A stretch of DNA of 64,000 nt. Source: Devosia sp. SL43 (GTDB lineage Bacteria; Pseudomonadota; Alphaproteobacteria; Rhizobiales; Devosiaceae). The number at the start of each line of letters is the position of its first letter. Position 1 is the first letter of the stretch. Positions 1,728 to 4,728 of the stretch are shown here, piece by piece. The notes below the pieces were generated by a model. The model did not search any database, was not told the DNA's origin, and saw only the letters and a list, made by a program, of their open reading frames with translations. The stretch lies in the NCBI RefSeq assembly GCF_021729885.1, contig NZ_CP063401.1, positions 2,162,501 through 2,226,500 of the forward strand, in the 5' to 3' direction. A program made the position numbers and the translations under genes.

Positions 1728-3200
1728 CTACCCCACCTTCCGCTCGAGGGTGAACCAGGCGATACCAGCAGACACCAGGCTCAAGACCGCCGTGACATAG
1801 GCGACAACAGCAAAAGCGGCATCGGTCGCGCCAAGCCGCAGCGCTTCTTCGTCGGCACTCAATCCTTCGGCCGGCATCCCGAAAAAGATCGGCAGCTCCG
1901 CAGCGCGGTCCAGGCTCTGCTCGAACACCGCCGCCACCAACGCCCCGAGCAACGCCACCGCGACCAGTCCCGCCACACGAGCCACCGCATTGTTGACGCC
2001 CGACGCAGTGCCGGTGTCGCCATCCTCGACCGAGGTCATCACCGCCGTCGACAGCGGCGAAACTACCAGCCCCATACCCAGCCCAAGCAGCACTACCGAC
2101 GGCAGCACCCCCGTCCACGGACTATGCATCGGCGCGGTGATGCCCATCACCGCAAAGCTCAGGGCAACAATCAGCGACCCCAGCGCGATCAGCGGCCCGG
2201 GTCCATACCGATCCGCCCACTTGCCACTGAACGACGACAGGAGGGTCAGGATGATCCCCAGCGGCAGCAGCGTCAGCGATACCGTGGCCGGTGACTCGCC
2301 CCAGCCGCCGATCATGGTCATGGGCAAAAAGAACATCGTGCCGCCCAATGCGAAATAGAGGGCGAAGGTCAGGCCATTGGCGCCGGAAAACCCGCGATTG
2401 GCGAAAAGCCGAAGGGGCAGCATCGGCAACTTGGCGCGCCATTCCCAGATGATGAAAGCCGCAGCCAGCACGATGCCAAGCCCGCACCAGAGCAGTGTAT
2501 GCGACAAGGGCGACACGCTCTCGCTGCCGTCGCCGATGAAGCCATAGGCGATGAACATCAGCGCCACCGTGGCGAGTGCCGCGCCGAACACATCAAGCCG
2601 CCGCCCCGCTTCGACGCGATCCGGCGCCACCTTGAACCACAGCAGCGCCAGTGCCCCCACACCGAGCGGCAGGTTGATGGCGAATATCAATCGCCAGCTC
2701 CAGTCACCCAACCCGGTTAGCACCAGCCCACCGATGATCGGCCCGGCCACCGAGGTGATCGAGGACGCCGCCGCCCAGATGCCAATGGCCTGCCCGCGGC
2801 TCTCCTTGGGATAGGCCTTGGCAATGATGGCCAGGCTTCCCGGCACCATGAACGCCGCACCAATCCCCTGGATGGCCCGCGCAACGATCAGCCATCCCGG
2901 TGTCGGCGCCAGCGCACAGGCAATCGAGGCCAGCGTAAACAGGGCAATGCCCAGGCCAAATGTCCGCCGTAACCCGAACCGGTCACCCGCCGCACCGCCC
3001 AGCAGGGTGAGCGCCGAAAGGAAGAGCAGATAGGCATTGCTCACCCACTGCGCATCGGCCAGCGTGGCGCCCAGATCGGCGCGGACCGAGGGAATGGCGA
3101 TGGAAATCACCGACCCGTCGATGAACCCCATGCTCGACGCCACGATCGCCGCCACCAGCACGAAGCGGCGGCTTTGCGGATCGGTGATATCCTGCGGCAT
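1728..3200 (-). CDS. MFS transporter, DHA2 (EmrB/QacA-like, 14-TM) family
   Basis: A 490-residue, strongly hydrophobic protein with the spacing of a 14-helix drug:H+ antiporter. Family marks are MGFIDGSVISIAIP in TM1, a motif-A loop GDRFGLRR after TM2, ARAIQGIGAA in TM4, and motif C SVAGPIIGG in TM5, which is diagnostic of exporters. It most likely pumps out hydrophobic drugs or related compounds at the inner membrane using the proton gradient. It lies 33 bp downstream of a VOC-family gene on the same strand, so the two are probably one transcript. A LexA-like box precedes the pair. Starts at ATG 3200. Substrate cannot be read from sequence. Confidence 0.9.
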   Translation of the reverse strand: MPQDITDPQSRRFVLVAAIVASSMGFIDGSVISIAIPSVRADLGATLADAQWVSNAYLLFLSALTLLGGAAGDRFGLRRTFGLGIALFTLASIACALAPTPGWLIVARAIQGIGAAFMVPGSLAIIAKAYPKESRGQAIGIWAAASSITSVAGPIIGGLVLTGLGDWSWRLIFAINLPLGVGALALLWFKVAPDRVEAGRRLDVFGAALATVALMFIAYGFIGDGSESVSPLSHTLLWCGLGIVLAAAFIIWEWRAKLPMLPLRLFANRGFSGANGLTFALYFALGGTMFFLPMTMIGGWGESPATVSLTLLPLGIILTLLSSFSGKWADRYGPGPLIALGSLIVALSFAVMGITAPMHSPWTGVLPSVVLLGLGMGLVVSPLSTAVMTSVEDGDTGTASGVNNAVARVAGLVAVALLGALVAAVFEQSLDRAAELPIFFGMPAEGLSADEEALRLGATDAAFAVVAYVTAVLSLVSAGIAWFTLERKVG

Positions 3201-3233: not shown

Positions 3234-3572
3234 CTATTCGCGCGCCACGTAAACCGCCATCTCGTTCCCACCCGGCTCGCGGAAGTGGAAGCGCCGACCG
3301 CCCGGAAAATCGAACTGCGGTTGCGTCACCACGCCACCGGCCGCCAGCACCCGGCGCTCCGCCGCATCCAGATCATCGGTGCGCACCACGGCCATCGTGG
3401 CGGCTACCTTGCCCTCAGCCTGATCGATGCCGCCGTCGATCCCTGCTCCATCCAGCCCATCGTAGTCGGGCCCGTAGCTCACAATGCCCCAGCCAAACGC
3501 CGCCTGAAAAAACGCGCTGCTCAGCGCCCGGTTCGCCGAGGGAAACTCGATATAGTCGATTCTGTCGGTCAT
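3234..3572 (-). CDS. VOC family (glyoxalase/bleomycin-resistance fold) protein
   Basis: A 112-residue single-domain protein with the beta-alpha-beta-beta-beta pattern of the vicinal oxygen chelate fold. The N-terminal IDYIEFPSANRALSSAFFQA is the usual start and FHFREPGGNEMAVY near the end is the usual closing strand; the Glu in that strand is a common metal or substrate contact. Members include glyoxalases, dioxygenases and antibiotic-binding proteins, so the reaction is not predictable. The start ATG is preceded by an AGAGG ribosome site, with a GAAC-N7-GAAC box immediately upstream. It precedes a DHA2 exporter, which suggests a shared detoxification role (inference). Confidence 0.85.
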   Translation of the reverse strand: MTDRIDYIEFPSANRALSSAFFQAAFGWGIVSYGPDYDGLDGAGIDGGIDQAEGKVAATMAVVRTDDLDAAERRVLAAGGVVTQPQFDFPGGRRFHFREPGGNEMAVYVARE

Positions 3573-3585
3573 GCTGTGCCTCTAT

Positions 3586-3600
3586 GTTCTTTGTTTGTTC
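3586..3600. promoter_or_regulatory. Candidate LexA (SOS) box
   Basis: The sequence GTTCTTTGTTTGTTC is an exact GTTC-N7-GTTC direct repeat, the established alphaproteobacterial LexA operator. It ends 14 bp upstream of the VOC protein ATG and next to its ribosome site. Repression of the VOC-MFS operon fits the position. A chance match remains possible. Confidence 0.5.
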
Positions 3601-3639
3601 TTATCAAATCAAAGCGTGTTCCGCAAGGAACCGCGACCG

Positions 3640-3711: not shown

Positions 3712-4728
3712 ATGATCCATCTGACAACATTGGCGCGCCACGCGCGCTTGGCAGCAATCGCACTATCGTTGGCCGGCGCACTTGCCGTGCCGGCACAAGC
3801 CGACGAGGTCGCCGACTGCGCGGCCCTGATCGCCAGCCCCTTCGAGGCCGGTTACAAGGCCACGGGCATCAACCCCCGCGAGGCCGATCGCGTCGCGGCC
3901 GAAGAGGTCTGCAACGCCGCCATCGTTGCCCATCCCGATTCCATGGAAGCCCGCACCTGGCTGGCGCGCATCCACTTCTACTATGGCGAGTATCCCCAGG
4001 TCGTCGATCTGGTCGAACCGGCAGCCGCAGCCGGCAATCCGCTCGCCCAGCAGATGCTGGCCGACATTCTCATCGACGGCCTTGGCGGCATTCCGGTCGA
4101 TGAGCCCCGCGCCATCGAATTGCTCGAAGCCTCGTCCGACGCCGGCTTCGCCCCGGGCCAGAACAGCCTCGGCGTCAGCTATGAGCGCGGCCAGGGCGTG
4201 CCGCAGGACGATGCCCAGGCGGCCAAGCTCTATGCGTCTGCGGCCAAACAGGGGCTGGCTGTGGCCGAGGTCAATCTGGGCATGTTCTACGCCGACGGCA
4301 TCGGCGTGCCGGAAGACGATGTCCGTGCCACCAAGCTGTTCATGAGCGCCGCCGAGAAGGGCGATGCCGGCGGCATGAACAGCCTCGCCGTCAGCTACGA
4401 AATCGGCGAAGGCATCGAACAGGATTATGCCCTGGCGCTCGACTGGTACCAGAAGGCTTCCGAGGCCGGCTCGGTGATCGCCGGCGCCAATATCGGCAAT
4501 CTTTACATTCAGGGCCTGGGCGTCGAGCAAGACTATGCCGAGGCTCTCACCTGGATCCGCAAGGCGGCGAAGGACGGCAATTCATACGGCCAGTATCTGC
4601 TGGGCAGCATGTATGAAGAGGGTCAAGGCGTCACCGCCGATATCGACAAGGCTATCGAGTTCTACACCCAGGCCGCCGACGGTGGCAGCAGCGACGCCGA
4701 GGATGCCCTGGTTCGACTGGGCCAGTAA
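3712..4728 (+). CDS. Secreted Sel1-like repeat (SLR/TPR-like) protein
   Basis: 338 residues. An N-terminal signal peptide (about 1-30, ending AVPAQA) is followed by at least six Sel1-like repeats of 35-37 residues, seen as recurring blocks of the type LGxxYxxGxGVxxDxxxAxxxYxxAA (for example SYERGQGVPQDDAQAAKLY and FYADGIGVPEDDVRATKLF). SLR proteins are alpha/alpha solenoids that scaffold protein contacts. In alphaproteobacteria they often act in the periplasm in envelope or exopolysaccharide functions. A GGGAGG ribosome site precedes the ATG. The gene stands alone, divergent from VOC-MFS and convergent with clpB. Partner proteins unknown. Confidence 0.85.
   Translation: MIHLTTLARHARLAAIALSLAGALAVPAQADEVADCAALIASPFEAGYKATGINPREADRVAAEEVCNAAIVAHPDSMEARTWLARIHFYYGEYPQVVDLVEPAAAAGNPLAQQMLADILIDGLGGIPVDEPRAIELLEASSDAGFAPGQNSLGVSYERGQGVPQDDAQAAKLYASAAKQGLAVAEVNLGMFYADGIGVPEDDVRATKLFMSAAEKGDAGGMNSLAVSYEIGEGIEQDYALALDWYQKASEAGSVIAGANIGNLYIQGLGVEQDYAEALTWIRKAAKDGNSYGQYLLGSMYEEGQGVTADIDKAIEFYTQAADGGSSDAEDALVRLGQ

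Follow-up and report, generated by a model that had tools for sequence, protein, structure and literature searches.

A conserved LexA-type box ahead of a small VOC-superfamily gene in Devosia and other Alphaproteobacteria

A direct repeat of the form GTTC-N7-GTTC lies just ahead of a gene for a small VOC-superfamily protein in Devosia sp. SL43 (GTTCTTTGTTTGTTC, positions 3586-3600, + strand; GAACAAACAAAGAAC on the coding strand of the VOC gene), and we put the probability that it is the LexA operator of this gene at roughly nine in ten. An earlier note on this DNA had reported the exact repeat, which was indeed found in the window (the whole 64,000-nucleotide stretch that was analysed), but the gap to the start codon of the VOC gene (3234-3572, - strand, 112 amino acids, start codon at 3572) is 13 bases and not the 14 bp given there. 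Sequence comparisons support the motif itself, its match to the SOS boxes of the host genome, its conservation and its position over promoter-like hexamers. LexA control, which that note had proposed, is made very likely by the presence of the box ahead of 48 of 56 orthologues in the genus and ahead of homologues in other alphaproteobacterial groups.

The same box was found at SOS genes of the host genome (4.26 Mb, two contigs), including the two on which the proposal of LexA control had been made to depend: lexA carries two boxes, 22 and 47 bases from its start, and recA carries one, 122 bases from its start. Further boxes lie 188 bases from the start of uvrA and 216 bases from that of ssb, and others precede genes read from their Pfam matches as dinB, comM and rmuC, and an imuA-like frame overlapping an imuB-like frame (the names imuA and imuB being our reading). 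The sequence around all 85 exact sites in the genome was extracted and examined, and a home-made gene finder placed 44 of them between genes and 41 within genes; this gene finder is crude, as it put the imuA-imuB box (L054) inside an open reading frame of the opposite strand, and so more weight was given to a scoring matrix and to conservation.

Some of these sites lie outside the classical repair genes. An identical 15-base box (L023:2038-2052; G000:C1:682137-682151) stands 192 bases ahead of a DNA polymerase III alpha gene with PHP and DNA_pol3_alpha domains, read as the replicative dnaE, with lower-scoring flanks (14.9 bits); SOS control of a replicative dnaE would be unusual. The genes of two similar 64-residue proteins lacking a Pfam match (L035:2109-2303 and L070:1812-2006) are both preceded by a LexA-like box, 19 bases from the gene start, and the proteins are possibly small SOS effectors. 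A second gene for a LexA-type DNA-binding domain was seen on the 44.6-kb second contig (L010; G000:C2:36132-36317), and other boxed genes outside classical repair encode an EamA transporter, a GIY-YIG protein, a GFA-family protein and two radical-SAM proteins (L016, L020, L058, L041 and L072).

Conservation was assessed by seeking the VOC protein in 101 genomes, of which 68 were positive at an E value of 1e-12 or better, and reading all 68 loci. Of the 61 genus members (SL43 included) 56 yielded the gene, as did 12 of the 40 other genomes. The 48 boxed genus orthologues have the box no more than 90 bp ahead of the VOC start, and in 40 of them it falls at -25 to -35. Control spacers of 3, 4, 5, 6, 8, 9, 10, 11 and 12 bases gave 2, 0, 0, 0, 0, 0, 1, 0 and 0 of the 56 loci respectively, and four scrambled four-base repeats held at a spacer of 7 gave 0-2. 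Among the eight unboxed loci (L111, L127, L130, L134, L135, L138, L140 and L142) are three, L111, L130 and L134, in which a gene of about 133 codons has been inserted between the promoter and the VOC gene, and here an exact box at -434 to -439 heads the operon with the inserted gene. This leaves five of the 56 loci lacking either a near or an operon-head box: L127 and L135 retain a single clear half-site, and for L138, L140 and L142 an exact box was not found in the 1.5 kb upstream.

The inserted gene belongs by Pfam to DUF6157 in L130 (1844-2245) and L134 (1846-2247), and in the genome of L111 a family search placed DUF6157 directly upstream of the VOC gene (also listed as locus L269). As DUF6157 thus sits between a LexA box and the VOC gene in three genomes of the genus, SOS control may extend to this family as well. 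In a fourth genome of the genus (G022, L268) DUF6157 is encoded elsewhere, and the stretch read there contained no exact box. Separately, in eight assemblies (G001, G002, G021, G023, G031, G034, G048 and G055) the VOC match begins 2.2-2.9 kb into its contig, which may point to a neighbouring repeat, possibly an rRNA operon.

Beyond the genus the box recurs in part. It was seen at three of 12 homologues in other families of the order (L145, L147 and L150; nine without), and at 24 of the best 80 of 573 matches from a scan of genome contigs, five of which repeat genus loci. The 19 further boxed loci include Rhizobium lusitanum, R. miluonense, R. mayense, Pelagibacterium, Caulobacter sp. Root343, Phenylobacterium and two records named Devosia (L166 and L167). 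Gammaproteobacterial, actinobacterial and Sphingomonas homologues among the same best 80 of 573 had no alpha-type box, and it was also absent from some loci close to boxed relatives, namely those of Devosia nitrariae (L177), a member of the Caulobacteraceae (L203) and a Phenylobacterium (L204), the last of which has a one-base change in the second half-site. Taken over the loci outside the genus set, with eight repeats removed, the box lies within 90 bases in 22 of 84, and other spacers gave 0-2 of 84. A class-wide sample of 385 genomes held a homologue at E 1e-20 in 32, and of the 29 loci read outside the SL43 genome nine had the box and 20 did not, some of the nine being weak or farther upstream (L246 and L260); other spacers gave 0-1. 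LexA boxes of other lineages take the forms CTG-N10-CAG (with CTGT or ACAG ends), GAAC-N4-GTTC and TTAG-N6-TACT, and ahead of the best 80 of the 573 homologues these gave two isolated matches only (L211 and L221).

The surroundings of the gene differ between these groups: clpB and an M23 peptidase gene in the genus, a DEAD-box helicase-like gene in Pelagibacterium, and in Caulobacter and Phenylobacterium a methyltransferase-like gene whose end lies some 40 bases upstream (the last two names were read from sequence). Since the neighbourhoods are unlike, the gene and its operator appear to stay together while their surroundings change. On a tree of 107 homologues, in which the genus was represented by every third row and six selected ones (about 16), the box label is clustered, with 10 changes against 31.9 in shuffles; the tree is weak, with few columns (as the program warned) and 52 of 104 inner branches open, and so we make no claim of a single origin for the box. 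A search of plasmids with the VOC protein returned 31 records, every one below 60% identity.

The VOC protein was assigned to its superfamily on both sequence (PF00903, Glyoxalase, E 7.3e-06, and PF18029, E 3.3e-05, both over the cut-off) and fold, its AlphaFold model (pLDDT 95.1) having the VOC fold; no NCBIfam family matched it at E 0.001. The best solved fold match was 2r6u from Rhodococcus (Z 15.3, 110 residues), followed by others including the Ni-bound glyoxalase I 3hdp (Z 13.2), the mitomycin-binding protein MRD 1kmz (Z 12.6, with 109 residues aligned at rmsd 2.5; TM 0.76) and the methylmalonyl-CoA epimerase 1jc5 (Z 12.5). With scores so similar for MRD, glyoxalases and epimerases, function cannot be read off the fold. 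The protein resembles MRD (1kmz, 1kll) and the zorbamycin-, bleomycin- and tiancimycin-binding proteins (5cj3, 1qto and 5umq) in fold and size but differs from them in sequence, at about 17% identity, and 1kll, 5cj3, 1qto and 5umq align poorly with it as single chains (TM about 0.4, rmsd above 10), perhaps due to domain swapping. Its closest solved relatives by sequence are Rv0577 of M. tuberculosis (3oxh, E 7.2e-12), which the VOC profile matches twice, corresponding to two VOC-like stretches, and RHA04853 (2r6u, E 5.5e-07).

In profile alignments the first-strand His and last-strand Glu of 3ey7/3ey8, which we take to be metal-ligand positions of VOC enzymes, face Tyr7 and Ala106, and both of these residues are invariant in 31 aligned sequences. 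On this alignment of a single chain, the protein thus does not have the His and Glu of a metal-dependent VOC enzyme. Glyoxalase I requires its metal, and with two usual ligand positions replaced, the protein is less likely to be a glyoxalase I than to be a binding protein or an enzyme that works without metal. Our tentative suggestion, held at somewhat less than even odds, is that this small protein, which probably lacks the usual metal site, acts by binding and neutralising a small molecule that damages DNA, with an exporter as an optional helper. DNA-binding antibiotics, which the earlier note had offered as an example, are a weaker suggestion for its target, drawn from the fold resemblance and the replaced metal-ligand positions. 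A plausible alternative, though we would not favour it, bears on function alone and leaves LexA control untouched: the VOC protein may handle a stress by-product, such as methylglyoxal or another reactive carbonyl, or have a housekeeping role. The Glyoxalase match in Pfam and the alignment of 3hdp point that way, as does the discussion of methylglyoxal for mycobacterial VOC-like proteins in the accessible text of a paper on SigG (PMC3776920), and the invariant Tyr7 and Ala106 point away from it.

The position of the box suggests how LexA could act on the gene. A probable -35 hexamer, TTGCGG (3621-3626, - strand), and a probable -10 hexamer, TAAGAA (3598-3603, - strand), were predicted 17 bases apart, the latter overlapping the box (the -10 could instead be GATAAG, at a spacing of 15 bases), and a probable ribosome-binding site, AGAGG (3579-3583, - strand), was read from the sequence. 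The TTG of the predicted -35 is conserved in the genus promoters: 41 of the 48 boxed ones have it at exactly 25 bases ahead of the box and 43 have it at 24-26, compared to 5, 7 and 4 of 48 for control windows, and at this spacing the box would overlap the -10 region of a likely promoter. The two bases preceding the box are T in 42 and A in 44 of the 48, from which most of these promoters would read TTG, a 17-base spacing and TAGAAC, so that in most boxed relatives the first half-site falls inside the predicted -10. Such an overlap means that the conservation could partly be that of a promoter, and we considered whether the repeat might be a conserved promoter element or the direct-repeat site of a regulator other than LexA. 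This is very unlikely, as a promoter alone would not keep the second half-site, which lies downstream of the -10, other half-site spacings occur in at most two of the 56 genus loci, and the same repeat is found at lexA, recA and other SOS genes.

With LexA as the regulator, the repressor bound over the -10 region would keep RNA polymerase off the promoter formed by the hexamers at about 3621-3626 and 3598-3603. Upon DNA damage, RecA filaments would promote self-cleavage of LexA, and the VOC gene, with the transporter gene behind it, would be switched on alongside recA, uvrA and the translesion polymerases. LexA binding, RecA-dependent induction and cotranscription are steps that we infer.

The number of copies of the motif was rejected as evidence for an operator. 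One exact GTTC-N7-GTTC occurs in the window, where 1.16 are expected from shuffles (sd 1.10), and the whole genome holds 85 compared to 81 for the reversed pattern; as both counts are at chance level, they prove nothing. The rival reading is chance, with a short motif, present 85 times in this genome, happening to precede a gene. On a matrix trained on nine SOS-gene boxes of the host genome, from which the VOC site was excluded, the window site scored 20.6 bits, the runner-up position in the 64-kb window scoring 11.9, and it ranked 17th of the 85 exact genome sites (training sites included). Its seven spacer bases alone gave a moderate 2.64 bits, a score that 2.6% of random spacers reach, as do 7 of the 29 other boxes seen at the loci of relatives. 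By these comparisons the box is placed beyond chance by its spacer and flanks on the matrix, and by its conservation. The earlier note had left chance open, and this stands as far as the count is concerned, but retention of the box near the start in the genus and in other genera, at a spacer of 7 only, makes chance very unlikely, and where a gene has been inserted ahead of VOC the box heads the operon; coincidence is accordingly an explanation to which we give next to no credence.

Behind the VOC gene, 33 bases from its stop codon and on the same strand, begins the gene of a transporter resembling MFS drug-efflux proteins (1728-3200, - strand, 490 amino acids; PF07690, MFS_1, E 1.2e-50), and the two are probably cotranscribed in this genome. 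The transporter is like the DHA2/EmrB efflux transporters in its MFS_1 domain and in its best NCBIfam model, TIGR00711, but its 217 bits lie below the cut-off of 230.2, and it was not assigned to the DHA2 EmrB subfamily. A VOC-MFS pair had been described in the earlier note as resembling a detoxification unit; the pair is present as described, on one strand with Pfam matches to Glyoxalase and MFS_1, but the exporter lies outside the conserved unit. Within the roughly 1.5 kb examined behind the VOC gene, a same-strand MFS match was found in 26 of the 56 genus loci and an opposite-direction M23 match in 29, with one locus (L142) having neither. Of the 26 loci with MFS 23 carry the near box, as do 25 of the 30 without (28 of 30 when the operon-head boxes are included), and in the non-Devosia loci whose neighbourhoods were read by eye no MFS gene was seen directly behind VOC. 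The conserved unit is the box with the VOC gene, and the exporter is an optional addition. That the operator serves mainly the exporter, with VOC as a passenger, would suit the 33-base gap on one strand but is scarcely tenable when most of the genus loci lacking MFS within 1.5 kb are still boxed and the loci read outside Devosia showed no MFS gene directly behind VOC. One relative has VOC and MFS separated by a gene for a small Cys-rich protein (L143:1102-1413, - strand). On the other side of the box, a Sel1-repeat gene (3712-4728, + strand) diverges from VOC, and an opposite-direction Sel1 match was seen in three of the 56 genus loci (L090, L092 and L101).

The arrangement resembles the alphaproteobacterial LexA (SOS) regulon, as known from Caulobacter crescentus, in its exact repeat and spacing, in the predicted overlap with a probable promoter, and in the occurrence of the box at lexA and recA of the host genome. 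The accessible text of one Caulobacter study, with LexA ChIP-seq and RNA-seq, gives GTTC-N7-GTTC as the LexA motif and 47 genes as LexA-controlled (PMC12700426). VOC-related terms were unmatched in the main text of that study, whose gene tables may list the gene, and in the accessible portions of five other papers (PMC13384398, PMC12907096, PMC4211646, PMC1839093 and PMC3323433); a paper on Rhodobacter names LexA in a reference only (PMC8456105) and another names glyoxalase in a reference only (PMC3901139). The literature searched did not describe LexA control of a VOC gene for Alphaproteobacteria, with the proviso that the C. crescentus gene tables may list one.

A partial precedent comes from M. 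tuberculosis, in which the VOC-like proteins Rv0887c and Rv0911 are likewise tied to a DNA-damage-responsive regulator, although control there is by the sigma factor SigG and not by LexA. According to the accessible text of the SigG study, mitomycin C raised Rv0887c 5.7-fold and Rv0911 slightly and not significantly, and a sigG mutant showed no extra sensitivity to DNA-damaging agents or methylglyoxal (PMC3776920). As the sensitivity of the mutant was unchanged, the mycobacterial precedent is one of induction and not of protection. In some Actinobacteria a gene of the PF18029 family, which the VOC protein of the window also matches, adjoins the genotoxic-stress regulator siwR, as given in the accessible text of PMC10693628.

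The operator is kept through Devosia and recurs in Rhizobium, Pelagibacterium and the Caulobacteraceae, which suggests that selection ties the VOC gene to DNA damage. SOS regulons are known mainly through their repair, polymerase and division genes, and the response as one of repair and mutagenesis. Since a VOC-like protein of mycobacteria responds to mitomycin C by way of SigG, two lineages may have reached similar solutions. A broader proposal, which we regard as speculative and rather less probable than the function suggested above, is that the SOS response of many Alphaproteobacteria regularly includes one VOC protein, a metal-free binding protein that soaks up or inactivates genotoxins while repair proceeds, travelling with its own LexA operator through differing neighbourhoods and recruiting partners, a DHA2-like exporter or DUF6157, according to lineage. 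If true, this would amount to a chemical-defence branch of the SOS response. As a probable operator shared by several groups of this class, the VOC box would add a gene to the known LexA regulon and draws attention to a side of the DNA-damage response that has been little studied.
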